This document shows, in pieces, positions 24,807 through 48,168 of a stretch of DNA of 64,000 bases. Both the position numbers and the translations under genes were made by a program. Location: contig NC_018020.1 in NCBI RefSeq assembly GCF_000266885.1, forward strand, positions 1,178,001 through 1,242,000, written 5' to 3'. The notes below the pieces were generated by a model. It worked only from the letters and a program-made list of their open reading frames with translations, was not told where the DNA came from and searched no databases. This stretch comes from Turneriella parva DSM 21527 (lineage in GTDB: Bacteria > Spirochaetota > Leptospiria > Turneriellales > Turneriellaceae). The stretch's first letter is position 1. Each line of letters starts with the position of its first letter.

Positions 24807-25139
24807 TCACTGAGTGGTAGTTGTGAGGCTACGCAGTAGCTCATCTGCCAGGTTTCGTCTGCCGTCAATTACCATAAGTATTCTGACTTCGTTTTCGCTG
24901 ATACGATAGATAATACGCCAGGGCTTATAGAAAATCTCCCGCACATCGACCACACCGAGCGATAGCAGTTCTGGAACTTTTCGCCCTCGTTCAGGTGCTG
25001 TTTCCAGAGAATCCGCTTGAGCCAGTAAAGCCTCAAAAATTTTCTCTGAGACAGCAGATTCCCTGTCGATTAAATGCTGAATTAAGAGTTCAAAATCTGC
25101 CCGGGCTCCGGCGGCCCAGACTACTTTGAATTTCTTCAT
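24807..25139 (-). CDS. RelE/ParE-family toxin
   Basis: The protein has 110 residues. The family pattern is clear: WAAGARADFELLIQHL at the N-terminus, LETAPERGRKVPEL in the middle, and VREIFYKPWRIIYRISENEVRI with the typical IDGRR near the end. RelE members cut mRNA on the ribosome and ParE members poison gyrase; sequence alone does not decide which. The ATG overlaps the antitoxin stop (ATGA at 25136-25139), giving antitoxin-first coupling. The pair sits in a region full of REP-like repeats. Confidence 0.88.
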   Translation of the reverse strand: MKKFKVVWAAGARADFELLIQHLIDRESAVSEKIFEALLAQADSLETAPERGRKVPELLSLGVVDVREIFYKPWRIIYRISENEVRILMVIDGRRNLADELLRSLTTTTQ

Positions 25140-25423
25140 CTCTTTGCTTTGAGTTTACGAAAATATTCCCGAAAATGCTTCTTGGCCTCTTCATGAGGAA
25201 TGCCGCCGCTTTCTTCAATGTCGCGTTCACGCAGCGCCACCAGCTTCAGCATCGCCATGGTATCTTGCTGCTGTTGGTAGGTTTCAATATCAGTCAGCAC
25301 CGCCTTTGCCTCGCCGTTCTGCGTGATGATGATCGGCCTGTGGTTCTCTGCCATTTTCTCAATAATCTCTGCCGCGTGGGCTTTTACATACGATATCGGT
25401 TTGATGTCTTCGGCGAGGTTCAT
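25136..25423 (-). CDS. Phd/YefM-family antitoxin
   Basis: The protein has 95 residues. The N-terminal DNA-binding domain has IKPISYVKAHAAEII, then NHRPIIITQNGEAKAVLTDIETY, the signature of Phd/YefM antitoxins. The C-terminal part is charged and probably disordered until it binds the toxin. Such proteins also repress their own promoter. No specific operator could be pinned down in the 60 bases upstream. Confidence 0.88.
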   Translation of the reverse strand: MNLAEDIKPISYVKAHAAEIIEKMAENHRPIIITQNGEAKAVLTDIETYQQQQDTMAMLKLVALRERDIEESGGIPHEEAKKHFREYFRKLKAKR

Positions 25424-26226: not shown

Positions 26227-27687
26227 CTACCAGCTTGCTATCGTCGGTGCAGTGTTGCTCGTCAGGGTAGAAGACAGCGCTTCGCCTTCGAGTGCCTTCA
26301 GAAAATTCACCAAATCTTCCATCTCTTCATTCGTCATACGACGAGTTGTAAGAATTGGGTCTTTGGTGCCAGGAAAGCTACCCGCATTGCCAGCGAAATT
26401 GTAGAAATTTACGACATCCCATAGACTGGTGAAAGTACCATTATGAAAATATGGCGGCGTCTTGTTGACACTGCGCAAAGTAGGTGTTTTGAATTTGCCG
26501 ACATCGGAAGTTTTCGCGCTAAGGCCCGAAACGCGGTTCGTGGTAGAGCTATCGTTGAAAGCCGTTGAAGTATTGAAAGCACCGTTATCGGCTGAATCCA
26601 AGAGTTTTGTCACTCCAGTAAACCGCCCCTGATCATTGCTGCCTGAATAGCCGCCGACCTGCGGCACGCCAAGGTTGTGAAAACTGCCGTCGCTAAAATT
26701 AGGTCCGCTGTGGCAGCGTATACAATTACCCTTACCAATAAATATCTTTAGACCTCGTTTTTGCGAGACAGTCATCGCATTTTCATTGCCTTCAGCCCAT
26801 TGGTCGAAGGCTGAATTTTTCGAAACGAGCAAGTGCTCGTACGCACCGATGGCTTTGCCAAAGTTAGCGAAAATTCTGTCTACGTGAACGCGATTGGCAG
26901 CAAAGCCAACTGCTTCGTAAAGCGTCTTGCCATATCCATTGGCGCTCGAAGGTGCAGCTAAGCTGCCGCAAACCGTTGCAGTTGCAGTCGCGCCCGCAGC
27001 TCCAGGGAACACTGTATTGTGCTGGGTAAAGTAATTTCCCGTGGGAGCAGTATTAGCATTACATATTATGTAAGCCACCCCATAACGGTGGAAATTGTGT
27101 GGATTGCCCTCAATTGCCGGCCGAGCTATTGACCAAACTGAATCAGTTGAACCATCCCAAAGGCTGTACGAATTAAACGAAGCGTTCAAGACTGTCGGCG
27201 CATTTCTGCTGGTAAAATTTGCCCCAAGGGAAACGTCATTTGGCTTAGTTGCACTGTCTGCCCAACCAAAGTTTGGATCGTGGCATGCCGCGCAATTAAT
27301 CCGGCGCTCCTGCCCAGCAGAATAGTTTATCGGGGATGTTGTCCGATTACCCTGAATAAGAATCGCACCAGAAAACTGAGTATCCCAAAAGAATTGCTGC
27401 CCCAAGGTCGCCGCTGCAGGCGTATTTACATAGGCATTACTCGCCTCTCCCGCTGGGGCCTGATAAATCAGCGTCTTAATAATCGCAATTTCGGTGTCTG
27501 AGAACAGAGCGTCTTTGTCTTCTTGCGCGCAGGAGGCAGCACTCAAAGTGAAAGCTAACGCCATCAAGAAGAATACTCTGTGTCCCCCTCCCGACCTCCC
27601 CCGCTTGCGGGGGAGGAGATTTTTCCCCTCCCCGCATGCGGGGAGGGGTGAGGGGTGGGGACTACAGAGAAATTTGTTAGTAAACAT
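26227..27687 (-). CDS. Di-heme cytochrome c peroxidase/MauG-family protein
   Basis: Two CxxCH heme motifs, CAACH at residues 132-136 and CIRCH at 322-326, flank the typical di-heme peroxidase core, with RNAPTVLNASF after the first heme and FKTPTLRSVNKTPPYFHNG after the second. Members reduce hydrogen peroxide in the periplasm or modify proteins. The 5' end is odd. The ATG at 27687 has a good ribosome-binding site (AAGGGGGATAACT), but residues 8-36 are encoded by a REP-like palindrome pair. The hydrophobic FFLMALAFTL and lipobox SAASC follow only after it. A start at 27564 would avoid the repeat but lacks a ribosome-binding site. Confidence 0.88.
   Translation of the reverse strand: MFTNKFLCSPHPSPLPACGEGKNLLPRKRGRSGGGHRVFFLMALAFTLSAASCAQEDKDALFSDTEIAIIKTLIYQAPAGEASNAYVNTPAAATLGQQFFWDTQFSGAILIQGNRTTSPINYSAGQERRINCAACHDPNFGWADSATKPNDVSLGANFTSRNAPTVLNASFNSYSLWDGSTDSVWSIARPAIEGNPHNFHRYGVAYIICNANTAPTGNYFTQHNTVFPGAAGATATATVCGSLAAPSSANGYGKTLYEAVGFAANRVHVDRIFANFGKAIGAYEHLLVSKNSAFDQWAEGNENAMTVSQKRGLKIFIGKGNCIRCHSGPNFSDGSFHNLGVPQVGGYSGSNDQGRFTGVTKLLDSADNGAFNTSTAFNDSSTTNRVSGLSAKTSDVGKFKTPTLRSVNKTPPYFHNGTFTSLWDVVNFYNFAGNAGSFPGTKDPILTTRRMTNEEMEDLVNFLKALEGEALSSTLTSNTAPTIASW
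27582..27664. repeat. REP-like palindrome pair inside the 5' end of the peroxidase gene
   Basis: Two hairpins, CCTCCCCCGC-TT-GCGGGGGAGG and CCCCTCCCCGCATGCGGGGAGGGG, are framed by CCCCCTC and GAGGGGTGGGG sequences. The pair is of the same family as 24721-24770. Read on the minus strand it adds 29 codons in frame. Confidence 0.85.
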
Positions 27688-27702
27688 AGTTATCCCCCTT
27701 TT

Positions 27703-29187
27703 TCAAAACTTCGCCACCAGCGATGACGTGAAGATGTTGTTGTCGAATGCATATTTGCTAATGTAGCCGACTTCGAGATTCCATGAGTATTCGGCCTTGA
27801 AGATGATGCTCTCGGTGATGTCGATGCGCACGCCCGGAGTGAATTGGGCGACGTCGACGATGAAGACGTATTTGGGGTCGATTTCGTCGGCCTTGCGGCG
27901 GCTGAAACGTGCGTAGATGCCGACTGTGTTCATGTCAAAAAGGCCCGGGAAAGAATACATGCCTTCGACGTACCACGCTTCGGCGATGTAGTTCTTGGTT
28001 TCGTTGATGCCACCGCCGTCGGTGTTGACCTTGAACCACTGGCCGCGAATCTGCAGCGCGTTCCAGGCGATCTGAAAGTCGGGGCCGAAATCCCATTGTT
28101 TGGGGGTGTTCGAGATCTGGCCGTCTTGCGGGCCATACGAACCCGAAGCGCCGATTTCGAGCAGAGTCACGGGGCCGAAGGCAAAGTCATAACTCAGGCG
28201 GCCCGAGTAGGTTTTGCCCGAATTCGATTCGACGCCCTCGAAGATACGCGTGTCGTTGGTGAATGAGTTGCCGTTGGTGACGCCGACGTTCCAGATGAAG
28301 CGTTTGTCGAAGTGTTTGCCGCGCACTTTAACGCCGATCGGGTTGCCGTTCATGTAGCGGCCAACGAGCGTCGGCGTGACTGTCCAGCGGTCGGGCGCAC
28401 GGCGCCAGCGGTATTCGATACCGGTGATGCCGATGAATTTACCGGCGGTAATGGTGATGTCGTACTGGTCGAGAGGCTTATAGTCGAGAAACGCCATGTC
28501 GAGATTGACGAAGCTGCCCATGCCGGTCTGGTTCTGCACCACCGGCTGGCGCGGTAAAAATTCGGTCGAAACCTGCAGGCGCACCTTGTCGTTGAGCTCG
28601 GCGATAAGGTCGACCGTCGCACTATTGATTGCACCCATCGGGTGGCCCTTGCCCTGCATGCCGTCAAAGGCGAGCGGAAAGTTGCCCGCTTCACCGAGGT
28701 CATGCGCTTCATGGCGCGTGTTCATATAGGTTGAAGCCGGGTCGCCGACGAAGACCGCCGTTTTGTCGGCATATTGCTGAAAGTTGTTACCGACGTCTTT
28801 TGCATAGCCGACACCCTTGTTCTGCGCGAACGCAAAACCCATGTCGACAAACCCGGTAATCAGCAGGGTGGGAGCTCCCTTTGCGGCGCCAGGCGCCTCG
28901 CCTTCGGCGACAACTCCCGTGCCGCTGCCCGGTATAATTTCTTCAGAACCCGAACCCGACGAGACAACGGCCGCAGAGCCTGCGGCAGCGGCCGGTTCTT
29001 CGCTGCCCTCATCGCTCTCGCTCTCGGCAGCCGCAGGGGCGTTTGCCACCTTGCGCTCAACCTTACGGGGTTTTGCGCGCCCTTTTCGGCGGCGCGCCGC
29101 CTCGACGTCAAAACTGCCTAGCACGACAAACGCCGCGATGAGCAGACTCAGAAATTTTACATAACGGTGAACGAGCAGTTGAAGCAT
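27703..29187 (-). CDS. Outer-membrane beta-barrel protein
   Basis: From the ATG at 29187 the product is 494 residues. A signal peptide (FLSLLIAAFVVLGSFDVEA) is followed by a basic RRRKGRAKPRK stretch and a low-complexity Ala/Ser/Gly/Glu linker to about residue 110. The rest has the alternating pattern and aromatic girdles of a porin-like barrel, from LLITGFVDMGFAFA to the C-terminal SSLVAKF, which ends in phenylalanine as barrel proteins do. Its ATG overlaps the upstream TAA (TAATG at 29185-29189), coupling it to the electron-transfer operon. The transported substrate is unknown. Confidence 0.75.
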   Translation of the reverse strand: MLQLLVHRYVKFLSLLIAAFVVLGSFDVEAARRRKGRAKPRKVERKVANAPAAAESESDEGSEEPAAAAGSAAVVSSGSGSEEIIPGSGTGVVAEGEAPGAAKGAPTLLITGFVDMGFAFAQNKGVGYAKDVGNNFQQYADKTAVFVGDPASTYMNTRHEAHDLGEAGNFPLAFDGMQGKGHPMGAINSATVDLIAELNDKVRLQVSTEFLPRQPVVQNQTGMGSFVNLDMAFLDYKPLDQYDITITAGKFIGITGIEYRWRRAPDRWTVTPTLVGRYMNGNPIGVKVRGKHFDKRFIWNVGVTNGNSFTNDTRIFEGVESNSGKTYSGRLSYDFAFGPVTLLEIGASGSYGPQDGQISNTPKQWDFGPDFQIAWNALQIRGQWFKVNTDGGGINETKNYIAEAWYVEGMYSFPGLFDMNTVGIYARFSRRKADEIDPKYVFIVDVAQFTPGVRIDITESIIFKAEYSWNLEVGYISKYAFDNNIFTSSLVAKF

Positions 29188-29750
29188 TAGCTGGCTTGGG
29201 GCCTCTTTACAGTATCGACGAAGATATACGCACACATTACCGTGATCGACAGCGACAGCAGCGCCCCGCTGAATCTCAGCATCAGCGCGAACGCCTCTTT
29301 ATGCATAAAGAACAGGCCAAAGGTGTGGAGCACGACCGAGAACGCGAGCAGCACGCCCCAGAGAATCTTGGCGCGCTCAGAAGCAGTGCTCATAAGAAAT
29401 AGAACTATCAGCGTGAAGTAAACAAGGCTTTGGCCGTTGAGGTGTGTGTGGCCCAATTTGAAGTTTTCATAGATGAACCAATCTTGTGGTTTCACCTTGA
29501 CCGCTTCTGAATCGGCCTCGATGACAACGCCGCTCGATTCACCGTCATCGGGCTTCACGATTGCGGGTGTTACGGGCGCAGCAGCGGGGGCGGATTCAGC
29601 TTTTTTCTGAATGCCTTTATCGGTAACAAGCCCGTGGTGCCACGAACTCAGCGCGAGCGCAACAACGAGTATTGAGCCCATGAGCATCGTGTAGATCGCG
29701 ATCAACGCCCGTGCGGACACGGGAAATTTGCGTATGTTTGGCCAATTCAT
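29187..29750 (-). CDS. Small membrane protein of unknown function in the electron-transfer operon
   Basis: The protein has 187 residues. A first transmembrane helix (residues about 15-38) is followed by a periplasmic loop of 60 residues, and then three closely spaced helices. The first of these begins with LGHTHLNGQSLVYF, whose paired histidines at the membrane edge could bind a metal or heme, as in other membrane electron carriers. That is a guess from position. No family is recognised. It is coupled to the downstream barrel gene and separated by a hairpin from the upstream polyferredoxin gene. Confidence 0.55.
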   Translation of the reverse strand: MNWPNIRKFPVSARALIAIYTMLMGSILVVALALSSWHHGLVTDKGIQKKAESAPAAAPVTPAIVKPDDGESSGVVIEADSEAVKVKPQDWFIYENFKLGHTHLNGQSLVYFTLIVLFLMSTASERAKILWGVLLAFSVVLHTFGLFFMHKEAFALMLRFSGALLSLSITVMCAYIFVDTVKRPQAS

Positions 29751-29801
29751 AATTGGCGCAGCCAACCTGCTCGGCCTGTGGGGACAAGAACTTTTCTTTG
29801 G

Positions 29802-29838
29802 GAATCCTGAAACGGCGCTGCGCGCCGTTTCAGGATTC
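29802..29838. terminator. Perfect 17-bp hairpin over the polyferredoxin stop codon
   Basis: Arms 29802-29818 and 29822-29838 are exact complements around TGC. The TGA stop of the minus-strand gene (29830-29832) is inside the right arm. There is no T-tract, so it may attenuate or process the operon transcript rather than end it. Confidence 0.6.
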
Positions 29839-31251
29839 TCCCTTCGATACCTTGGATAGTATATTGATCTCTGCAGGGCTCAGATCTTCTATGCGCTTGC
29901 CACGCACAAGATCTTTGAGGCGGTCATAAGATTGCGCCAGACGCGAGCGAAGCGCCGAAGCCAGGGTTTCTTCTGTGTGGTCTTCTTGCGAGCGGCCGAT
30001 ATTTTTCATGAGCCAGACCGTCGTTGCAACGACGATCAGCGTGTTAACGGTTGTCTGCAGCCATGGTGGCATGAGCGCGATATTCGGGCGGCCTGCGAAG
30101 AGGTAAAACGTGTTGATCGTCACCCAGGCACAGACCATAAACATATGGTGCCGAACTTTGTCGTCTGAAACCGAGGGGTCGAGCTTGCGGGCAACACGGC
30201 GATAGATCGCTTCAATGCCGCACCACAGGGCATATGCCCCCAGAACAGCGAGCCCCATGGCGAGCGGTGCAGCGATAATCTTGGGTATCGGCACAGCATA
30301 ACCATTGAACCAGAACCCCGGATTCATGAGCTGGTTCAGCTGAGCGTTTTCTTCGTGCGTCCAGGCGCCGGTGAAGTAGTAATCCCAACCGCCGCTATAA
30401 AGATAATAATAGACGTAAAACATCAGCACCATACCGAAATAGCCATAATAAGTGAAACGGCTGCCGGGGCGCTTATAGATTTCCCAGTAGCTGCGCTCGA
30501 GGTCGACGTCTGGGCAGGCTGTGATGCACGAGACGCAGACGCTCTGGTCACCATCTTTACCGGGTGTGCGGCACATCGACTGCGTGACCGGCAGTTTGGG
30601 TGCATGCGCAGGCGTTTCGAGAATGCCACGCGGCATCGTGTAGATGCGCTGCATCGGCGCTATCGGGCAGAGGTAGTTGCACCAGGTCTTGCCGCCATAG
30701 AAGAGGCCGGTAATAATTGCTGCAGTGATGATTCCAATAAAGAAGAAGGCGAATACCGCGCGATCAGAGTTGATGAACAGCAGGCGGGCCGTTACCCCGC
30801 TGCTCAGAAAGACAAACTGCAGGGGCAGGTGCCAGCGCGCGAGCCATGAATCTTGCGAGATCGTCATGGGTTTGCGCTCGACCCGGCCCGTCTGGCGGTT
30901 AAACGTCTTGCGCATGAACTGCAGGCCCAGGTAATAGGGTATGCGCGAAGACAACGACAGCGGGCAGATTCGCCGCCACGCTTCGTGGCCGAAAACCATG
31001 AGAAAGAGCGGCACGCACGGCAGAATCATTGTCCAGAACATGCGCGCACCCATCGCGTAGGGCTTCTGCTCGAGCACTACACCCTGCACTCTGACTTCTT
31101 TATTGCTCAGCGCAAACGGCGTGCCGCTGTCGGGCTGCGTCAGTACCGGCGTCACCGGATCCCAAAAGAGCGAAACTATCAGCACTATCCAAGCGATAAA
31201 CAGAATCAGGCGCACGGTGACCATGCGGCGTTCAGGGGCTTTCGCAAACAT
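29830..31251 (-). CDS. NapH/NosR-like membrane polyferredoxin
   Basis: From the ATG at 31251 the product is 473 residues with about seven transmembrane helices. Cysteine motifs typical of NapH, NosR and CcoG relatives are present: RRICPLSL near residue 95, GGKTWCNYLCPIAP near 195, and CVSCITACPDVD near 240, giving at least one cytoplasmic-side 4Fe-4S centre. Such proteins pass electrons from a cytoplasmic donor across the membrane. The ATG shares its A with the TGA stop of the reductase gene upstream (TGATG), so the two are made together. The open frame upstream of 31251 is a shadow of the reductase. Confidence 0.82.
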   Translation of the reverse strand: MFAKAPERRMVTVRLILFIAWIVLIVSLFWDPVTPVLTQPDSGTPFALSNKEVRVQGVVLEQKPYAMGARMFWTMILPCVPLFLMVFGHEAWRRICPLSLSSRIPYYLGLQFMRKTFNRQTGRVERKPMTISQDSWLARWHLPLQFVFLSSGVTARLLFINSDRAVFAFFFIGIITAAIITGLFYGGKTWCNYLCPIAPMQRIYTMPRGILETPAHAPKLPVTQSMCRTPGKDGDQSVCVSCITACPDVDLERSYWEIYKRPGSRFTYYGYFGMVLMFYVYYYLYSGGWDYYFTGAWTHEENAQLNQLMNPGFWFNGYAVPIPKIIAAPLAMGLAVLGAYALWCGIEAIYRRVARKLDPSVSDDKVRHHMFMVCAWVTINTFYLFAGRPNIALMPPWLQTTVNTLIVVATTVWLMKNIGRSQEDHTEETLASALRSRLAQSYDRLKDLVRGKRIEDLSPAEINILSKVSKGES

Positions 31252-33011
31252 CAGACCTCGATCTCCACGTAGGTTTTTGCGCGCGACACGCAGGTGAGAA
31301 TGAAGCCGGCTTCGCGGTCGGCATCTGAAAGGCCCGAGGTCTCGTCGCATTCGACCTCGCCCTTGATTTTCATTGCGCGACAGGTGCCGCAGGTGCCGGC
31401 GCGGCACGATGAAGGTATCTCGACGCCCACCTCTTCGGCGAGGTCGAGAATGGGAATATCCATATCACCGCCGAAGATTTCGAGACCGGCTAGCGAAAAG
31501 TGAACCGTAGCCCCGGCGGCTGTTTCGGCAGGGCGTGGTTGCACTGCGGGTGCCGCAGTGCCAGTAGCTGCGGGCGCGGCTTTCGCGGCAGCAGCGGCCT
31601 TCGCCGCAGGGGGAGCTCCGAAACTTTCTTGCCTGAACCGCTCTTTAATGGGAAAACCCTGCCTTTCGAGCAGCAGCTTCGCATGTTTCATGAATGAATC
31701 GGGGCCGCAGGTAAAGACCATGCGGTCGTGCAGATCAGGTGCAATCTGCTTCAGATGCTCTTCACTGAGGCGACCCTTCATGCCCGGCCATTCTTGCGGC
31801 AGGTGCGGCGAAGTAAAAGCCGCCACGTATTTGAACTTACGGTTGGCTGAGGTGAACATCATCATGTCTTCGGTGAAGACTGCATCTTCAGGCTCGCGTA
31901 TGCCGTGATAAAATATTACATCGGGGTAAACACCGGTATCGTGCCACCAGCGCGCCATCGACAGCATCGGTGTCACACCGCTGCCCGCGGCGAGAAACAG
32001 ATATTTGTCGGTAGTGGTGTCGAAACAGTGAAATTTGCCGCCGGGCGGTTTCATGGTGACGGTGTCACCAAGGTTCAGGTGATCGTGCAGGTAGTTCGAT
32101 ACGAGCCCGCCCTTCACACGCTTCACCGAAATTTCAATTAGATGAGGGCGCGAGGGGCTCGACGAAATGGTATAAGACCTTAAGACGCGCTTACCTTCGA
32201 TGTTGAGCTCAAGAGTCACGAACTGGCCGGGCTTGTAGAAAAACAGCGTCGGCTCTTCGGCCATAAACTGGAAGCTTTTGAAATCGTGGCTGCGGTCGAC
32301 GATGCCAATGCAGCGCATCGCCTTTGGACCTTTTGTCCAGAATTGCAGCTTTTCAGGGCTGACGGCATCGTGCTCAGAAAACGGCACGAGTTTCATTACC
32401 GAAAAGGCTGTTTCTGCCGCCGGGGCCGGGGCCGCGGCCGATACCGAAGGGCCAACGACAACCTCAGCCACGGGCGTGTGGGTTACCTCAGGTGGCTTTT
32501 CGGTCTTGGGCAATTCGATGTGCGCCGCGGCAGGCGCAGTCACCGAGTCTGCTGGCGCGGGTTCGGCCGCTGGCCTCTCGGCAAAAAACCGCGACTCACG
32601 GTACAGGTTTTGAATCGCGGGTAAAACGCCATCATTGCCGTGGACAAGATCAATGAGCAGGTTGTGCATCTTTTGCACTGCTTTGCGTTTGCGTGTGGGC
32701 GCGGCCGCGAAGGTGGCGTCGAGAATCGATTTCACCCATTCGCGCGCCGGCGCATCGAGCTGGTGCGATAAGAGGCTGAGCTCGGTCGCCGGCACCGGGC
32801 CATGCTTCAGGTAGTCGCGCCAGTTCTTGGTATAGTGGTCGTGCAGCCCGATGCGCGCCGCTTCAACCTCTGCCGCTGCCTGAGTTTTTTCGAGCGAGTT
32901 GAAGAAAGCTTCGGCTTCGTGTGCCGTGATTTCTTGAACGACGTCGCACTGCCATGTGAAACACGAGAATGCCGCGAGAGCGATCTTTGTCTGTTCTGCC
33001 ACTTCTGCCAT
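31251..33011 (-). CDS. FAD/NAD(P)-dependent reductase with C-terminal 2Fe-2S ferredoxin domain
   Basis: The 586-residue protein starts at the ATG at 33011. Residues 1-150 are a helical domain I cannot name. A Pro/Ala linker of 60 residues follows. The ferredoxin-reductase core has RSYTISSSPSRP for FAD and LFLAAGSGVTPMLS for NAD(P), then VFTCGPDSF. A second Ala/Pro linker leads to a plant-type 2Fe-2S domain with SCRAGTCGTCRAMK and a later cysteine in ILTCVSRA. This layout is like flavodoxin-reductase/hybrid-cluster-reductase proteins. It is the first gene of the operon and probably feeds NAD(P)H electrons to the polyferredoxin. Confidence 0.88.
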   Translation of the reverse strand: MAEVAEQTKIALAAFSCFTWQCDVVQEITAHEAEAFFNSLEKTQAAAEVEAARIGLHDHYTKNWRDYLKHGPVPATELSLLSHQLDAPAREWVKSILDATFAAAPTRKRKAVQKMHNLLIDLVHGNDGVLPAIQNLYRESRFFAERPAAEPAPADSVTAPAAAHIELPKTEKPPEVTHTPVAEVVVGPSVSAAAPAPAAETAFSVMKLVPFSEHDAVSPEKLQFWTKGPKAMRCIGIVDRSHDFKSFQFMAEEPTLFFYKPGQFVTLELNIEGKRVLRSYTISSSPSRPHLIEISVKRVKGGLVSNYLHDHLNLGDTVTMKPPGGKFHCFDTTTDKYLFLAAGSGVTPMLSMARWWHDTGVYPDVIFYHGIREPEDAVFTEDMMMFTSANRKFKYVAAFTSPHLPQEWPGMKGRLSEEHLKQIAPDLHDRMVFTCGPDSFMKHAKLLLERQGFPIKERFRQESFGAPPAAKAAAAAKAAPAATGTAAPAVQPRPAETAAGATVHFSLAGLEIFGGDMDIPILDLAEEVGVEIPSSCRAGTCGTCRAMKIKGEVECDETSGLSDADREAGFILTCVSRAKTYVEIEV

Positions 33012-33230
33012 GCGTCGGGTTCGTCTCGGGTCGCGAACCAGCAACCCAATTGATTACGTCTCTCATGCAGGCACGATTGCCGGACATCGTGTCAATGGCG
33101 AAAAGCTGAACAGTTGCCAACGCTGGGCTGCGCGGCAGGCCACCGGGTTGCTATGCCAGTAACCCGTGAAACAATAAAAGGTTGCGAAGCCGAGCAAATT
33201 AGGGCAATAGGCCATCGGCATAGGAGACAT

Positions 33231-34175
33231 ATGAACCCCGACAACAACTTACGTTTCTCTTTTAGCGGCAAAGGTGGCGAACTTTTCGTTCTGCTCATCA
33301 AGAATCTATTTCTGACTCTTATTACCCTGGGGGTATATAACTTCTGGGGGCGCGTGAACCTGCAGCGCTATTTTTTCGAAAGCACATCGGTGGCCGGCGG
33401 CCGTTTCGGCTGGCATGCGACCGGTAAAGAGCGCTTCATCGCTTTTCTCAAAGCCTCATTGATTTTCGCGGCGATCATCGGCGTCAATACGCTGCTCGTG
33501 CAGATTTCACCTTACCTCGGCATCATCTTGCCGCTCGCCTTCTTGCTGCTGTTGCCCGCAATCATCGTCGCACAGTTTCGCTATCGCCTTTCGCGCACCT
33601 CGTTCAACCAGATTCGCTTTCGCTTCACAGGCAAGGCCGGCAACCTGGCTGCGATTACGCTCAAAGGTGGATTACTAACGATCATCACCTTTGGCATCTA
33701 TGGCGCATGGCTCGCCGCAGACGTGCGCAAATTTCTCTACCGCCACACAACCATCGGCACCTCGTCGCTCGACTACGACGGCACAGGCGGAGCAATCTTC
33801 GGCCTGTACGTCAAAGGCATTCTTTTGACCATCGTCACCTTCGGTATCTACGTGAGCTGGTTCAAAGCCGAAGTTGCCAACTACCACACGAACCACACGA
33901 TCTTTCAGGGCAACCACATGAAAGGTGTTATCGACGGCGCCGAAATTTTTGTCGCCAATTTGCTCGGGCAGATATTCACCTTTCTGACCCTCGGCATCTT
34001 CATACCATGGTGGATCATTCGCTTGCAAAAGGTCATGATTCAGGGCATGCAGCTGACGGCTGAACCTGACTACACGGCGATGCAGGCACAATTCGATTCA
34101 GGCGCCAATGCTCTCGCCGAGGGCATCGCCGACGCTGCGTCTCTGCTCGACAACATAGCGGATTTCTTAACGTGA
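33231..34175 (+). CDS. DUF898 (YjgN-like) membrane protein
   Basis: The ATG at 33231 follows TAGGAGACAT, a strong ribosome-binding site. The product is 314 residues. The family repeat FSFSGKGGELFVLLIKNLFLTL appears near the start and again as FRFTGKAGNLAAITLKGGLLTI and YDGTGGAIFGLYVKGILLTI; each copy is followed by a GVYNFWGR-type or GIYxxW segment. This triple repeat with embedded helices is typical of YjgN. It is joined to the M48 peptidase by a GTGA overlap, a pairing commonly seen for this family. The function is not known. Confidence 0.9.
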   Translation: MNPDNNLRFSFSGKGGELFVLLIKNLFLTLITLGVYNFWGRVNLQRYFFESTSVAGGRFGWHATGKERFIAFLKASLIFAAIIGVNTLLVQISPYLGIILPLAFLLLLPAIIVAQFRYRLSRTSFNQIRFRFTGKAGNLAAITLKGGLLTIITFGIYGAWLAADVRKFLYRHTTIGTSSLDYDGTGGAIFGLYVKGILLTIVTFGIYVSWFKAEVANYHTNHTIFQGNHMKGVIDGAEIFVANLLGQIFTFLTLGIFIPWWIIRLQKVMIQGMQLTAEPDYTAMQAQFDSGANALAEGIADAASLLDNIADFLT

Positions 34176-35365
34176 TACACCAGACCAGCGCCCGCTACCT
34201 CGACGGGTTAGACCCGCGGCCGCGCACCGGGCGCCTGGTCTACGACGAAGCGCACCGCGAACTGCATTTTTATGAAGCGGCCGAAACCGGTGAGCGCTTC
34301 GTCTGCTCTATCGATAAGAACCAATCGATAGACATACGCTCACGCGGGGGCGAACAGATCATCGAGTGGCGGCCCAAGACCAACCACACGAGCGCGATGC
34401 TCATTGTCACCGATCTGGCGTTTACGCGACTGATACGCGACCGCTTTCTCGCGCACAAAAACGTGTTTTGGCGCTATGCGACCTTGGTTTGGTCTGAGTC
34501 ACTCGGCAAGGTCGCTCTCGCACTCGTCGCCGCAGTTTTCGCCACAGGTCTCGCGACCTGGTATTTCATGGAGCACAGCTTCAAACTAATACCCGTTTCG
34601 TGGGACAAAAAAGTCGGCGACCAGGCAGCACCGGGCCTCAAAGAATTCGGCGAGATCTGCGAATCAAAACAGACGATCGCCGACTTCAAACGGGTTCTCC
34701 CTTACCTGACTGAAAAAGACACGCCGCACGAATTTGAAATTCAGATTCTGAAGACTCCGGTTGAAAACGCCTTTGCGCTGCCGGGCGGCAAGATTACCTT
34801 CTTCTCGCAAACCATAAAAAAAGCGCAGACGAATGCAGAGTTGGTTGGCATTCTCGCACACGAGGTCGGCCACGTCGAACGCCGCCACGGCATGCAGCAG
34901 CTCAGCCAGTATATGACCCTAAGGGTTATTCTCGCCTTAGCCTTCGGCATGGCCGATGAGACCACAACGCTCGCGATGGCTGCCGATGCAGGTGCGATTC
35001 TCTTTTTGCTGAAGAACTCGCGCGACCACGAGCGTGACGCCGATGCGTACGCCGCCGAAAAGCTGGCAGCCGCCGGCATTTCGAGCAAGGGCATTCGCGG
35101 CTTCTTTGAGCGCATCAACAAAGAACACAAGGCACAGATGTCGAAGGTGCCCGACTTTATTCTGACCCACCCTCAAGACCAGGATAGAATTCAGTTCTTT
35201 GAACGCTACGAAAAGAAACACGCGGCAAAATTCAGAAAGGCAAACGCCAACCTGCCCGAATCGATTAAGGTTTGGCTGAGAAGTAAGCCCCAGCTTTCAG
35301 CCGCGTGCATACCACCCGAGAAAGAGACCGCAAAAGACGTCGACGACGAAGATCGCGACGAATAA
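34172..35365 (+). CDS. M48-family membrane metallopeptidase
   Basis: The protein has 397 residues and a GTG start that overlaps the DUF898 stop. Residues 1-110 form a cytoplasmic region, a transmembrane helix lies at about 110-130, and the peptidase domain follows in the periplasm. The zinc motif HEVGH is near 231-235, with the third ligand in the HERDADAYA segment near 289. Relatives include BepA- and LoiP-type outer-membrane quality-control proteases. The last 40 residues are charged and end in an Asp/Glu run. A large palindrome starts 6 bases after the stop. Confidence 0.9.
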   Translation: MIHQTSARYLDGLDPRPRTGRLVYDEAHRELHFYEAAETGERFVCSIDKNQSIDIRSRGGEQIIEWRPKTNHTSAMLIVTDLAFTRLIRDRFLAHKNVFWRYATLVWSESLGKVALALVAAVFATGLATWYFMEHSFKLIPVSWDKKVGDQAAPGLKEFGEICESKQTIADFKRVLPYLTEKDTPHEFEIQILKTPVENAFALPGGKITFFSQTIKKAQTNAELVGILAHEVGHVERRHGMQQLSQYMTLRVILALAFGMADETTTLAMAADAGAILFLLKNSRDHERDADAYAAEKLAAAGISSKGIRGFFERINKEHKAQMSKVPDFILTHPQDQDRIQFFERYEKKHAAKFRKANANLPESIKVWLRSKPQLSAACIPPEKETAKDVDDEDRDE

Positions 35366-36641: not shown

Positions 36642-37781
36642 TTGCTTGTGCCGTTACTGGTTGTTTGGGTTGCGTGTCCGGTGCAGGAACATTCGGCACT
36701 CACACAGCCCGATACATTTATCGAGCATTATGAGCGCAAGATTCATAGCCAGAAGCAGCTGATTGAGCTTTCTAAGGCACTCAACTCAAACCTCGACCTG
36801 CGTTCGCTGATCGATTCGATTCTGAATATCAGCATCGCCCAAAGCCGCTGCCTGCAGGCCGGCATTTACCTCGTACCCGAGATCGATCACCATGGGCTGG
36901 TGCTCGATGAAAACTTTGTCGGCTTTGAAGTCGCCGACCCATCGGCGTTTGCCATACCCTACAAGAGTGACATCGTCAAACTGCTGTCTGAATACCCGAC
37001 GCTGCTCACGCTCTCTGAGATCAAGAATATCGCCGCCGCCACAGAGCATTCGAGCCTTGCGCAGGTGAGCTACACGGCCGCCATTACGCAGTTTTCAAAG
37101 CTGAACGCCGAGCTGCTGCTGGTGCCTCTGAAAGCAAAAGGCCGAATCAACGGTATTCTCGTCATGGGTCCAAAGTCTGACGGCGAAACCTACCTTGCTG
37201 AAGAAAAAGCTTTCTTGTCTGATTTAGCGTCGCTGGCGGCGATTGCGGTCGAAAATGCGCGACTCTACGAACTGGCAACGGTCGACATGATGACGAAGCT
37301 CAAGATTCACCATTTTTTTCAAACTCGCCTGCGCGAAGAAATTGAAAACTCGCGCGATACCGGTGAGCCGGTGTGCCTGCTGCTGACCGACATCGACCAT
37401 TTCAAGAAGTTCAACGACACGTATGGCCACCAGATCGGCGACCTGGTTTTGAAGGAGGTCGCGAAAGTTCTCATTAACACCGCCAAAGGCAAAGATGTCG
37501 CGGCGCGCTACGGCGGCGAAGAGTTTGCACTGATTGCTCCGGCAAGAAACATAGAATCTGCGCGTGCCATTGCAGAAAAATACCGCGAGAAGATTGAGAA
37601 GCTGTCGGTGAAAAACCCTTCGAACAAAGGTGAAAAGACCCTCAAAGTGACAGTGTCAGTCGGTGTGGCGATGTTCAACCCCGAAACCGACAGCGAAAAC
37701 AAGCATCTGATCGAGCGTGCAGACCAGGCGCTCTACGCAGCGAAGCATGGCGGTCGAAACCGGGTAGAAGTGAAAGCCTAG
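36642..37781 (+). CDS. Diguanylate cyclase with GAF sensor domain
   Basis: Up to 379 residues. A helix (EHYERKIHSQKQLIELSKALNS) leads into a GAF domain (about 45-205). The GGDEF domain follows with TDIDHFKKFNDTYGHQIGD and the active-site RYGGEEFAL near 291-299. The product-binding RxxD I-site is replaced by KGKD. It should make c-di-GMP. The start is uncertain: the track start is a TTG at 36642, a GTG two codons later and another at codon 15 are also possible, and none has a clear ribosome-binding site. The second diguanylate cyclase gene follows 59 bases later. Confidence 0.85.
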   Translation: MLVPLLVVWVACPVQEHSALTQPDTFIEHYERKIHSQKQLIELSKALNSNLDLRSLIDSILNISIAQSRCLQAGIYLVPEIDHHGLVLDENFVGFEVADPSAFAIPYKSDIVKLLSEYPTLLTLSEIKNIAAATEHSSLAQVSYTAAITQFSKLNAELLLVPLKAKGRINGILVMGPKSDGETYLAEEKAFLSDLASLAAIAVENARLYELATVDMMTKLKIHHFFQTRLREEIENSRDTGEPVCLLLTDIDHFKKFNDTYGHQIGDLVLKEVAKVLINTAKGKDVAARYGGEEFALIAPARNIESARAIAEKYREKIEKLSVKNPSNKGEKTLKVTVSVGVAMFNPETDSENKHLIERADQALYAAKHGGRNRVEVKA

Positions 37782-37840
37782 CTCGCTTACATAAATATCA
37801 AGATAAATCAATCTGTTCGCAGAGTTCGATTGACTGCCGC

Positions 37841-38662
37841 ATGAGAGCGAAGAGAACCACAGATGTTCTGCTGGCCCTGGCACTCTGGGTCGCCATCAGC
37901 GCGATCGATAATCAGGTAACGTATGAAATTGGCCTTTCGATTTTTTATTTGATTCCCATTTCGTTTGCCGTTTATCGCCTCGGGTTCGCGGCCGGCTTAA
38001 CTGTATCTGTTTTGAGCAGTCTTTCATGGTACTTCAATGATCTGGGTACCGGGCACACCTATTCAAACCCGCTGATGCCGCTTTGGAACGCCTTGATGCG
38101 TTACGGTTATTTCGTTCTGCATTCATACTTTTTATCGCGCTACAGTCTGCTTCTTAAAAAATCGCAGCAGCAGGCTTATACCGATAGTCTCACGAATGCA
38201 AGAAATTCGCGTTATCTGATCGAACAGATACGCCGCGACCACGACCATGCGGCTGCCCAAAATAAACCGCTGACACTCGCGTATATCGATCTCGATAATT
38301 TCAAGGCTGTGAACGACACGAAAGGCCATGCCGAAGGTGACCTGGTTCTGCAGACTCTCGCGAATTGTACCATGGCGCTTATGGGCGAGAAAGATACTTT
38401 CGGCCGCATGGGCGGCGACGAATTTGTGCTCATTTTGCCCGGCTACACTTTTGATGAGGCGAATACTCTGCTGACCAGATTAAGATCTGCAGTTCACGCA
38501 GAATTCGCAGCACACAACTGGCCGGTTTCACTCAGCGTAGGAGCAATTACATATACAGAACTCGGCCGCCTCGCCGATCGGCTGCTGCAAGATGTGGATA
38601 GCCTCATGTACGCGGTCAAAAAATCGGGCAAAGACGCTCTGCGCCACGAACCAAGACCTTAA
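37841..38662 (+). CDS. Membrane-bound diguanylate cyclase
   Basis: The protein has 273 residues. Three to four transmembrane segments fill residues 8-100 with short loops, so little is exposed outside. The GGDEF domain has TDSLTNARNSRYL, YIDLDNFKAVNDTKGHAEGD and the active-site RMGGDEFVLI near 187-196. An RxxD inhibitory site is absent (GEKD). It makes c-di-GMP, which the PilZ protein at 50101 could read. A 59-bp tandem repeat array starts soon after its stop. Confidence 0.88.
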   Translation: MRAKRTTDVLLALALWVAISAIDNQVTYEIGLSIFYLIPISFAVYRLGFAAGLTVSVLSSLSWYFNDLGTGHTYSNPLMPLWNALMRYGYFVLHSYFLSRYSLLLKKSQQQAYTDSLTNARNSRYLIEQIRRDHDHAAAQNKPLTLAYIDLDNFKAVNDTKGHAEGDLVLQTLANCTMALMGEKDTFGRMGGDEFVLILPGYTFDEANTLLTRLRSAVHAEFAAHNWPVSLSVGAITYTELGRLADRLLQDVDSLMYAVKKSGKDALRHEPRP

Positions 38663-44468: not shown

Positions 44469-46508
44469 TTACGCGCTGACTTCGACTGCATCTTCAACGC
44501 CTTCAACTGTTTTCATCTCTTTCAGAATATTCATCAGATGCTCGTCTGAATCGACTTCGATCACAAAACGGTCATTAATGTGCCCCACCTGAGAGGTCGT
44601 TGCGTTCGCTTCGATGATGTTGGCGCCGCTCTGCGCCAGCTGCTTCACGATATCGAGAAATATTTGCGCCCGGTCAAGGCCCCTGATTTCAATCGAAGCC
44701 TGCCGCCCTGTCGAATGGCCGACCCATTTGAGCGGTATCAGCCGCTCTGCCTGTTCGGGGTTCTCGCTCAGGTGCGTGAGAGAGGGACATCCTTTCTTGT
44801 GCACTGAGATAACACCGAGGCGCGAAATAAAGCCGGCGATGTTGTCGGGCGGCGACGGATTGCAGCACTGCGCGTATTTCACTTCGAGCTGCGTTTCGCC
44901 CTGCCAGTCTATCTTTTTCAGGTTCGGCTGCGCGATAACCGTCGCGCCGAGTTTTTCGCTGCGTGCCGGGCGCGGGCCCTTCGGTTCTGGCTGCGCCTTT
45001 TTCTCGTTCTCGACCAATTTTTCGGCAACGCTCGTATCGGTCTTGCGAAAGAAGGCTTTCAGTTTTGCCCGCGCGTTCGGGGTCTTGAGGTAGTTGAGCC
45101 AGTTGAGCGATGGCTTCACGCTGCTATTGGTGATGATTTCTATCTGGTCGCCGTTCTTGAGCGGAGTGCGAATGCTCACGAGACGGTCGCCGATTTTCGC
45201 GCCTGCGCACCTGAGACCGATGTCGGTATGAATACGAAAGGCAAAATCGAGCACAGTCGAGTTCTCGGGCATCGTGAAGATTTTGCCCTTGGGTGAAATA
45301 ACATAAACCTCATTCGCCTGGCTGAGGTTAGATACGAGTTCTTGATAAAAATCACCCGAGTCGGCCTCATCGTCTGAGATGGCCATGTTCTGCAGATCGA
45401 GAAATTGCGTTTCAAAGGTTTTCTGGTCGCCCGGCTTTTCTTTGTACGCCCAGTGCGATGCGATACCAAACTCAGACACCCGGTGCATTTTCCAGGTGCG
45501 TATCTGCACTTCGACGGGTTGGCCGCCGGGTCCGATGACAGTGGTGTGGAGGCTCTGGTAACCGTTCGATTTTGGCACAGAGATATAGTCTTTGAATCTG
45601 CCGGGAAACGGTGTCCACAGCGTGTGCACGAGGCCGAGCACCGTATAGCAGTCGGGCACCTCGTTGACGAGCACGCGTACGCCGGTGAGGTCATAGATGT
45701 CTTCGAAAAATTTTTTCTGTTCGATCATTTTGTTGTAGATCGAATAGAAGTGCTTCGACCGCCCTTCGACGGTGGCCTTGATTTTTGACTCTTTCAGGTG
45801 CTGGGTGAGAAGCGACATGACCATTGCCACCCGCCCGTCGCGCTGCCCTTTTTTCTCGGCGATCTTGTCTTTAATGAGCGCGTAGGTAGTGCGATCGAGG
45901 TGATAGAGCGCCAGGTCTTCGAGCTCTGACTTTATCTTGTAAATACCCAGACGGCCCGCGAGAGGCGCATAGATCTCGAGTACCTCGCGTGCAATCTGCA
46001 TACCCTTGTTCGTTGAGTGAAAGCCGAGCGTGCGCATGTTGTGCAGCTTGTCGGCGAGCTTGATCAAGATGACGCGGCTGTCGCGTATCGTCGCCATGAT
46101 CATCTTGCGGATATTGATCGCCTGCTTGTTCTCGGCAGTCTGGGTCTTCAGAACCGATATTTTGGTGACCGATTCGACAAGATAGGTGATAGTCTCGCCG
46201 AACTCTTGCCGCATATATTCGGGCTTGATGAAGGTATCTTCAAGAACGTCGTGCAAGAGGCCCGCACAGACGACCTCATGGTCGAGGCCTAAATCGGCCA
46301 GGGTATGCGCGACCGCCAACGGGTGAATTATGTACGGTTCGCCCGACAGCCGCTTTTGAAATTTGTGCGCGTCTTCGGCGAGCAGGTATGCCTTCTTGAT
46401 GAGCGCTTTCTGGGCGCGCGTGACATACGAAGGCATATGCGCGAGCAGCGTATTCAGGGTCTGCCCTTCTTGCGCGGGCTGGCTGCGTAATAAAGAAGGC
46501 ATTGCCAT
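44469..46508 (-). CDS. Bifunctional (p)ppGpp synthetase/hydrolase, RelA/SpoT type
   Basis: The protein has 679 residues with all four domains in order. The HD hydrolase domain carries HDVLED at 86-91. The synthetase domain has GRSKHFYSIYNKM, RFKDYISVPKSNGYQSLHTTV and VEVQIRTWKMH. A TGS domain starts at VYVISPKGKIFTMP, and an ACT domain lies at the end after the CCNPSPPDNIAGF zinc-finger-like segment. Both active sites appear intact, so it should make and degrade the alarmone. It is convergent with the dihydrouridine synthase gene. Confidence 0.95.
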   Translation of the reverse strand: MAMPSLLRSQPAQEGQTLNTLLAHMPSYVTRAQKALIKKAYLLAEDAHKFQKRLSGEPYIIHPLAVAHTLADLGLDHEVVCAGLLHDVLEDTFIKPEYMRQEFGETITYLVESVTKISVLKTQTAENKQAINIRKMIMATIRDSRVILIKLADKLHNMRTLGFHSTNKGMQIAREVLEIYAPLAGRLGIYKIKSELEDLALYHLDRTTYALIKDKIAEKKGQRDGRVAMVMSLLTQHLKESKIKATVEGRSKHFYSIYNKMIEQKKFFEDIYDLTGVRVLVNEVPDCYTVLGLVHTLWTPFPGRFKDYISVPKSNGYQSLHTTVIGPGGQPVEVQIRTWKMHRVSEFGIASHWAYKEKPGDQKTFETQFLDLQNMAISDDEADSGDFYQELVSNLSQANEVYVISPKGKIFTMPENSTVLDFAFRIHTDIGLRCAGAKIGDRLVSIRTPLKNGDQIEIITNSSVKPSLNWLNYLKTPNARAKLKAFFRKTDTSVAEKLVENEKKAQPEPKGPRPARSEKLGATVIAQPNLKKIDWQGETQLEVKYAQCCNPSPPDNIAGFISRLGVISVHKKGCPSLTHLSENPEQAERLIPLKWVGHSTGRQASIEIRGLDRAQIFLDIVKQLAQSGANIIEANATTSQVGHINDRFVIEVDSDEHLMNILKEMKTVEGVEDAVEVSA

Positions 46509-46614
46509 TGGTTAGATTATACGTGTTTCAAGGTGGCGGCTGCAACAAAAATCGCGTTTACCCATAAGGATTTAGACCGATACTGGTGATAGCGCCCCGG
46601 GTGGGCGTCTGGTC

Positions 46615-48168
46615 ATGCTTTACTTTGCCGTATTGGGAATTCTTATGCTGCTCGCGCTTCTGGCGTGGCTCTTGACCCTGCGCAAAAGCAATCCGTTTCA
46701 TATCGTGCAAAAACTGATGGAAGAAGGCCAGTACGACGAAGCGGTGCTAAAGCTCACTGCGATGTCTGAAGATATCGACCTGGCCCCCCGCAGTTATATC
46801 TACCTGGCAGAATGCCATGAGCAGCTTGGGGCGCGCGACCTGGCCCGTACCTGCTACAAAAAGGCAATCGACGCCGGGGCATTCGACGACAAAGACCGCG
46901 AAATCGAGATCTACAAAAAGATTGGTGAAATTTACCGTTCTGAAAACGACACCGAAGGTTTTTTTGAGGTTTGTCTGGAAATATTGCGCCTGAACCCGGG
47001 TGACGAGCTCGCCAACCAAGAGGTCGGCATGATCGCGCTGGGCGACGGTCATTATAGCGTGGCCGAAATCTACCTCAAGGCCGCAATGGCACACAGCGAC
47101 GACCCGCAGCTTGTGCTCGCCTATGCCGTCACGCTCTGGCAAATGGGAGAATGCGACGAAGCCGTTGCGCACGTCGAAAAACTTTTAGCCGACGCCGGAG
47201 AAGAGCACATCTACCGCCTCATGTACGTGACCATGGCGACATTCGGTGTGCACCTGGCGCGCGGGCGGCAGACGGCCCTGAAGCTGATTGCCGATACGCA
47301 AGATGACAGTGTTAAAGAACTGCTCTACAATATTTACCTCTACCAGTGCTATCAGGGCAAAGCTCTGCGTGAAGCGCTCGACTTTTTGAAGCGGCAAAAC
47401 GAGTCGAACAGTTTGCCCGCAGACCGTCGCCGGGAGTATCAGTACCTGCTGTTAATTCTGTACCTAAACGAAGAGATGTTTCTCGAAGCTTCGCGCCTTT
47501 ACCGCGACCTCGCTGAAATCGACGATGAGTACCGCGACCTTAAACACCTCAGGGTGTTCATCGACCAGATCGATCTGAATCCCCATGCCGAGAATTTGAA
47601 GCCGTTCAAGCAAATACTCAAAGACAACTTTGAGCCGCTGCTGATGCCCGATCTGACTTATGCGATTTCAGGCTTTCGCAAGAATCGCGGCCTGGCGATC
47701 ACGAAGTTCTTTGACCTGAGTGGCGATCGGCCTCAGCTACGCATCGAATACGATGTTATGACCGCCGAGAAGAGCGCAGATCTTTTCATGCAGATGATGC
47801 CTGAAGAGTTTCAAAAGTTTGTTTTGTACATCATCACAAATCTCGAATACAATGAACCCGTTAAAGAATCTTCGGGTGAAAAAGATCTTGTCTTGTATTC
47901 GGCGATCTCGTCAAAGAGCAAATCGATTCGGGCGCTGTTTGCGTTCTACCGGCTCAGAACGGGCTCGCACATCAGCGACATTTCATTGCGCAATCTTCAG
48001 AATAAAATGCAGTCGCTTAAGGCAGACAAAACCTATATTATATCGAGCGCGCAGCTCACAGAAGGCGCCGCTGCTCTGATCTTGAAAGAATCGTCACTAA
48101 AGCAATTCGATGCCGAGCATCTCGCCGAATGGCTGCACGACTATTTCAAATCGACGCGCCGGCACTAA
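46615..48168 (+). CDS. Membrane-anchored TPR protein with degenerate Mrr-like nuclease domain
   Basis: The protein has 517 residues. A single transmembrane helix (residues 2-22) is followed by helical repeats to about 330, including the clear TPR segments LAPRSYIYLAECHEQLGARD and PQLVLAYAVTLWQMGECDEA. The last 170 residues follow the order of Mrr-type restriction endonuclease-like domains: MMPEEFQKFVLYII, then GEKDLVLYS, then TYIISSAQLTEGAAALI. The second half of the catalytic motif, normally QxK, reads FYRLR, so nuclease activity is doubtful. It stands alone between rsh and the ABC exporter. Confidence 0.6.
   Translation: MLYFAVLGILMLLALLAWLLTLRKSNPFHIVQKLMEEGQYDEAVLKLTAMSEDIDLAPRSYIYLAECHEQLGARDLARTCYKKAIDAGAFDDKDREIEIYKKIGEIYRSENDTEGFFEVCLEILRLNPGDELANQEVGMIALGDGHYSVAEIYLKAAMAHSDDPQLVLAYAVTLWQMGECDEAVAHVEKLLADAGEEHIYRLMYVTMATFGVHLARGRQTALKLIADTQDDSVKELLYNIYLYQCYQGKALREALDFLKRQNESNSLPADRRREYQYLLLILYLNEEMFLEASRLYRDLAEIDDEYRDLKHLRVFIDQIDLNPHAENLKPFKQILKDNFEPLLMPDLTYAISGFRKNRGLAITKFFDLSGDRPQLRIEYDVMTAEKSADLFMQMMPEEFQKFVLYIITNLEYNEPVKESSGEKDLVLYSAISSKSKSIRALFAFYRLRTGSHISDISLRNLQNKMQSLKADKTYIISSAQLTEGAAALILKESSLKQFDAEHLAEWLHDYFKSTRRH

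Follow-up and report, generated by a model that had tools for sequence, protein, structure and literature searches.

NapH-like proteins of the PF12801 family are reported to be modular transmembrane electron carriers, multi-helix inner-membrane proteins that bear Fer4_5 Fe-S motifs and link an electron donor to an extracytosolic redox protein (PMC8238504). A protein of this kind, here called PFD, is encoded in a cluster of five genes (RED, PFD, SMP, BAR and CCP) of Turneriella parva DSM 21527, which we analysed within a window of 64,000 nucleotides (contig NC_018020.1, positions 1,178,001 to 1,242,000 of the forward strand; coordinates are those of the window unless another locus is named). 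PFD shares the general architecture of these systems and the same kind of link, but it is accompanied by a dedicated NAD(P)H/FAD/2Fe-2S reductase and by di-haem partners, and proteins of its kind often bear signal-sensing tails. Unlike the flavinylation-associated NapH-like systems, neither an FMN-binding domain nor ApbE was found by Pfam in any of the five genes or of the ten scanned genes that flank them. With a probability of about 55%, we consider that RED and PFD form a NapH-like electron exporter, driven by NAD(P)H, that supplies a di-haem enzyme in the periplasm. The anatomy, the distribution and the gene neighbourhood were observed directly, and the flow of electrons, the roles of SMP and BAR and the substrate are inferred. 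No description of the RED-PFD family was found in the open-licence PMC literature.

The five genes, all on the minus strand, form two units. Unit 1 consists of RED (33011-31251, an open reading frame [ORF] of 586 amino acids) and PFD (31251-29830, 473 amino acids), and unit 2 of SMP (29750-29187, 187 amino acids), BAR (29187-27703, 494 amino acids) and CCP (27687-26227, 486 amino acids). Stop and start codons overlap between RED and PFD (TGATG) and between SMP and BAR (TAATG), while 15 nt separate BAR from CCP. The boundary between the units is a hairpin at 29802-29838, a perfect 16-bp inverted repeat with a 5-nt loop and the stop codon of PFD in its right arm. As an intrinsic terminator it was rejected, as there is no T-run on either strand and it was missing from the output of the terminator scan.

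RED carries the Pfam domains FAD_binding_6, NAD_binding_1 and a C-terminal plant-type 2Fe-2S domain (Fer2), the set found in GbcB-type (NF058606) and other FAD/2Fe-2S oxygenase reductases. NF058606 is also its best NCBIfam match (342.6 bits), although below the cut-off of 500, and RED differs from the GbcB type by an extra N-terminal domain and by having a membrane Fe-S protein as its partner. This N-terminal domain is helical and has no Pfam match in T. parva; the same lack of a match was seen in the single rhizobial RED scanned, and the domain is FHA in all four cyanobacterial RED proteins scanned. RED can be aligned to its relatives in other phyla.

PFD has about eight predicted transmembrane helices and matches Fer4_5 (PF12801) with 23.4 bits against a gathering score of 22, a threshold that several of its relatives miss slightly. 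Alignments revealed seven invariant cysteines (96, 191, 195, 227, 239, 242 and 246), which would suffice for one four-cysteine cluster and perhaps one three-cysteine cluster. A positive-inside charge count predicts all seven, together with the C-terminus, on the cytosolic, K/R-rich side. No PDB relative was found by sequence, and the AlphaFold2 (AF2) model has a pLDDT of 78. The first-pass annotation, made from the letters of the window, had named the same five genes, both overlaps and the hairpin, all of which were present on re-examination, and its reductase, barrel and di-haem protein stand as well, the barrel with only a sub-threshold family match. Its label "polyferredoxin" claimed too much for PFD, a Fer4_5 protein of the NapH-like kind in which seven cysteines are invariant.

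Relatives of RED and PFD are scattered among alphaproteobacterial plasmids, Rhodocyclaceae, SAR324 and cyanobacteria. A profile search at a threshold of 1e-10 found PFD in 4 of 247 genomes of Spirochaetota, all four of them in the genus Turneriella; a weak match in a further genome (G058, E 5e-4) was not confirmed by this search. The corresponding counts were 2/398 for Pseudomonadota, 29/244 for Cyanobacteriota, 2/52 for the SAR324 phylum and 3/140 for Myxococcota, each of these samples including the known-positive genome on which it was centred, and that of Pseudomonadota a second known positive. PFD was also present on 36 of 72,556 plasmid records, 23 of which were typed as conjugative, and one scan of a contig database gave 25 loci, two in the genus. 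In the PFD tree, the three rows from Turneriella cluster with one from an alphaproteobacterial metagenome-assembled genome at a support of 87/88 (a fourth genome, G001, is absent from the tree because its PFD is split), and horizontal transfer is the likely source of the Turneriella gene. The contig of another locus (L033) is titled Mycobacterium sp. KBS0706; its PFD groups inside the alphaproteobacteria, and the name of the record may be wrong.

RED and PFD trees agree in their main clades, and RED is adjacent or nearly so to PFD in 20 of the 47 loci that come from outside the genus and have flanking DNA. This count leaves out a distant small ferredoxin match in L110 and treats as RED-negative the cyanobacterial locus L113, in which PFD itself is fused to a C-terminal Fer2 domain. 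The adjacency, the agreement of the trees and the fusion support the electron order that had been proposed from the window, from NAD(P)H through FAD and 2Fe-2S to 4Fe-4S. The relatives usually carry cytosolic tails: of 18 PFD proteins from other organisms examined with Pfam, nine contained cNMP_binding, three FHA (two of these also cNMP), three EF-hand and one Fer2, with four containing none of these. By alignment, the Turneriella PFD stops where the tails of its relatives start.

The coupling of this pair to a di-haem protein of the peroxidase family, also part of the first-pass annotation, recurs in other lineages. Of the 20 RED-positive loci, 14 have a di-haem gene beside PFD or RED (13 of the CCP_MauG type and one DHOR), and none of the 27 RED-negative loci has a CCP or DHOR gene; Fisher's exact test gave p = 1.1e-7 for this association, although the loci are related by kinship and so are not independent. 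Twelve of the CCP-type genes are found in one alphaproteobacterial clade, the thirteenth is codirectional after RED in L038, and the DHOR-family gene is in L021. One plasmid locus with the divergent arrangement, L016, is from the bean symbiont Rhizobium etli 8C-3. Turneriella, L021, L038 and the clade of alphaproteobacteria differ from one another in di-haem families and in arrangement. Counted by lineage, the associations number at most four, Turneriella included. The six RED-positive loci that have no di-haem neighbour are two from SAR324 and four from cyanobacteria. The alphaproteobacterial partners align as canonical bacterial peroxidases with a Met ligand, and their top PDB match is 9qdt, a probable cytochrome c peroxidase.

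Two other kinds of neighbour were seen in these loci. In one alphaproteobacterial locus (L015:3966-6725), genes for a DAHL-domain histidine kinase and a response regulator are codirectional with the CCP gene and might encode a sensor of substrate or redox state. Three RED-negative loci with distant PFD genes, from Myxococcota and deltaproteobacteria, carry directly upstream of PFD a gene for an Ig-like protein with one CxxCH and no Pfam match (L040:2055-3797, L042:7815-9782 and L117:7379-9304).

CCP of T. parva is, by Pfam, the sole c-type cytochrome among the five genes, with a CCP_MauG domain and CxxCH motifs at residues 132 and 322, as in MauG, MbnH and the bacterial di-haem cytochrome c peroxidases. 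When its C-terminal haem domain is aligned without gaps to the MauG chain (residues 395-431 against 260-296), Y429 falls opposite position 294, that of the haem ligand Tyr294 of MauG. Peroxidases and the alphaproteobacterial CCP neighbours have Met at the equivalent position, so that the axial Met that marks a bacterial cytochrome c peroxidase is absent from the Turneriella protein. A review of oxidants in Leptospira names proteins MauG-like by such a tyrosine (PMC10294975). Since CCP scores 132.3 against the MauG model TIGR03791 (cut-off 443.85) and 120 against the MbnH model (cut-off 363), this comparison makes it MauG-like but not MauG. It further differs from MauG and MbnH in being a predicted lipoprotein beside a barrel and SMP. 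The lipoprotein-type signal (MALAFTLSAASC) is preceded by about 36 annotated codons that look like a dispersed repeat, parts of which match elsewhere in the genome, and the true start probably precedes this signal. A GC-rich inverted repeat-like sequence occupies 27570-27680 in this annotated 5' end, and other sites in the T. parva genome, as well as G003, contain matches to the encoded stretch.

The other two proteins of unit 2 belong to well-conserved orphan families that, by our searches, are seen in this genus only. SMP is predicted from hydropathy and charges to be a four-helix membrane protein; it has no Pfam and no PDB sequence match, and it was found in 4 of 61 genomes by protein search, all four in the genus, and in neither plasmids nor viral contigs. 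Its four sequences share six invariant histidines, of which H38, H39, H101 and H150 are predicted in periplasmic loops or loop edges and H103 and H142 in helices, although at about 80% identity this invariance is by itself little proof of function. The AF2 model of SMP has a pLDDT of 59, and its Foldseek list was noise. The "HTH" once noted in this protein was rejected as a helix-turn-helix, being a His-Thr-His motif (GHTHLNG) in a membrane protein. BAR is predicted to be an outer-membrane barrel; its signal is followed by a basic N-terminal stretch, and in the alignment its C-terminal residue is Phe. It matches BBP2 (PF07642) with 21.0 bits, under the gathering score of 26.2, and has a weak match in G023 (E 2e-4); no match was found in plasmids, nor a profile match in PDB.

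If RED and PFD act as an exporter, the domains of RED suggest that electrons would pass from NAD(P)H to FAD and then to its own 2Fe-2S domain, and the fusion, the co-inheritance and the predicted topology that they would continue to the Fe-S clusters of PFD on the cytosolic face of the inner membrane. PFD would hand them on towards the periplasm. Judging from the repeated neighbourhood, the usual terminal partner in proteobacteria would be a di-haem enzyme in the periplasm that belongs to the bacterial peroxidase superfamily. In Turneriella, where PFD lacks the cytosolic sensor tail, the partner would be the second unit, that is, SMP, BAR and the MauG-like lipoprotein, with SMP as a candidate His-ligated relay on the periplasmic side. 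In that unit, the electrons would activate O2 or H2O2 at the di-haem site, for an oxidation or for peroxide reduction in the cell envelope.

Several of our results weigh against such an exporter. Twelve of the 14 di-haem associations belong to a single alphaproteobacterial clade, and no CCP or DHOR neighbour was found in any cyanobacterial locus, in either SAR324 locus or in the tailless rhizobial loci. The model of PFD gave no Foldseek match at E 0.001 and a best VIA-align Z of 4.0 (which is not evidence of a new fold), and no redox or metal centre was identified on its periplasmic face, so that the membrane-crossing step is a gap in the proposed path. The MauG tyrosine is present in the Turneriella enzyme and not in the rhizobial ones, and the acceptor chemistry is therefore not uniform across the family. 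In addition, unit 2 is apparently transcribed from a promoter of its own, and in one relative, G001, the two units stand apart on opposite strands, with the breakpoint between PFD and SMP and both units whole.

Within the genus, PFD is present in four of seven genomes (G000-G003), always with RED as its neighbour. SMP is found in the same four and in none of the three PFD-negative genomes, and BAR in three of the four (the fourth is cut by a contig end) and in none of the three; this co-occurrence counts for little by itself, as the genomes may share one ancestral gain. The order RED-PFD-SMP-BAR-CCP is contiguous in G000 and G002, and the contig of G003 stops inside SMP. In G001, a TPR-Mrr gene comes after PFD, and SMP-BAR-CCP and relA/spoT point away from each other. 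The relA/spoT-like gene (minus strand) and the TPR-Mrr gene (plus strand) are divergent neighbours at 44469-48168 in T. parva, and the intergenic gap between them is the second breakpoint: when genes of the window were mapped on the G001 contigs, their order fitted an inversion from PFD to relA of about 16.7 kb, from about 29.8 to 46.5 kb. As the relA/TPR-Mrr junction is intact in G002, G005 and G006, G001 represents the derived state. The G001 assembly is a draft in 380 contigs, two of which share the split PFD, and three contigs were used to read the inversion. Against a stray contig stands the 87% identity between the relA of the contig that carries SMP and its T. parva counterpart. A clean empty site was not found in the PFD-negative G006, where the block left of 38.8 kb in the window is not syntenic.

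Each unit is also preceded by a conserved element. The first, AAAAGTTCTTG(T/C)CCC (29781-29796, minus strand), is located about 40 nt before the start of SMP in all four PFD-positive genomes, G001 included, and is a probable promoter or operator of unit 2. The second, TTGACACGA (33087-33095, minus strand), lies upstream of RED in the same four genomes and is a possible promoter element of unit 1. A sigma-70 consensus scan gave no more matches than shuffled sequence, so both calls are drawn solely from conservation.

The clean parting of the units in G001 and their separate upstream elements are what would be expected if they were neighbours by history only, RED-PFD being, for example, an NAD(P)H:quinone reductase and SMP-BAR-CCP an independent envelope system. 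This agrees with the lack of both RED and a di-haem neighbour in most cyanobacterial PFD loci and with the description of NapH as a putative quinone-binding subunit (PMC8238504). We nevertheless find mere neighbourhood unlikely, since other lineages, too, have di-haem genes next to RED-PFD, in varied arrangements, and the presence or absence of SMP tracks that of PFD in all seven genomes of the genus. What does not hold is the first-pass view of the five genes as one general module that would stay together in related genomes, since SMP and BAR were found in this genus only and the halves are separated in G001, an observation that the annotation had itself named as refuting its view.

A different question is what the di-haem protein does with the electrons. 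It could be a true peroxidase with RED-PFD as its reductase, the whole serving NAD(P)H-driven reduction of periplasmic peroxide, and the canonical, Met-ligated alphaproteobacterial partners make this possible, if somewhat doubtful. The Turneriella protein points the other way, with Tyr429 in place of Met and aligned without gaps to MauG 294, the feature that the Leptospira review associates with MauG-like proteins (PMC10294975); plain peroxide removal, one of the functions first suggested for this cluster, is less likely than had been assumed because CCP is MauG-like by this tyrosine. The same residue, together with the 15 nt between BAR and CCP, would suit an enzyme that oxidatively modifies an envelope protein or a fatty acid, with BAR as the substrate or as a channel for it. 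T. parva is reported to grow on long-chain fatty acids and alcohols (PMC3746428), and Pseudomonas di-haem proteins have been linked to fatty-acid oxygenation (PMC4496055). We rate such a modification as quite improbable, as CCP falls under the MauG and MbnH cut-offs.

The first-pass annotation also raised a role in iron reduction or in extracellular electron transfer by way of the barrel, and the presence of a predicted barrel together with an electron-export pair would favour it. A porin-cytochrome conduit for extracellular electron transfer pairs a multihaem cytochrome with a barrel, whereas the five genes include no multihaem cytochrome, CCP with its two CxxCH being their only c-type cytochrome. 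Extracellular electron transfer was rejected on this ground. The barrel is a weak BBP2 match in a separable unit, and no positive evidence for either function emerged, nor, as said, a periplasmic metal centre in PFD. We consider this the most remote of the readings, with very little chance of being right.

Returning to the exporter formed by RED and PFD, a broader interpretation can be put forward tentatively, and we would sooner doubt it than rely on it. RED-PFD may be an undescribed family of signal-gated Fe-S electron exporters, an Fe-S counterpart of the NADPH oxidases, in which the cytosolic cNMP, FHA or EF-hand tails of PFD and the FHA domain of RED in cyanobacteria would act as switches on the flow of electrons leaving the cytosol. 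Di-haem proteins would be the acceptors in several lineages, and the tail-less Turneriella version would be connected instead to an envelope oxidase of the MauG type, together with a membrane relay (SMP) and a barrel of its own. NADPH oxidases of the NOX5 type combine cytosolic NAD(P)H/FAD chemistry with membrane electron transfer through a ferric-reductase haem domain. The NAD(P)H/FAD chemistry, the membrane transfer and the EF-hand tails of some cyanobacterial PFDs are alike, but this is an analogy only, as the membrane core of RED-PFD is Fe-S, belongs to another family and has no ferric-reductase haem domain. Few wires are known that join envelope redox enzymes to cytosolic or quinone electron pools; if this interpretation is true, RED-PFD would add a small, regulated, horizontally scattered, NAD(P)H-dependent Fe-S wire, in many cases equipped with second-messenger or phospho-recognition domains, and a dedicated donor for di-haem enzymes, whose donors are often unknown.

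The surroundings of the cluster in T. parva contain some further genes. Immediately downstream, genes for a ParE-like toxin and a Phd/YefM-like antitoxin occupy 24807-25423. On the other side, genes for a DUF898 protein and an M48 peptidase (33114-35365) are divergent from RED, and this pair still adjoins RED in G001 and G002. Two neighbouring GGDEF-domain genes are located at 36642-38662.

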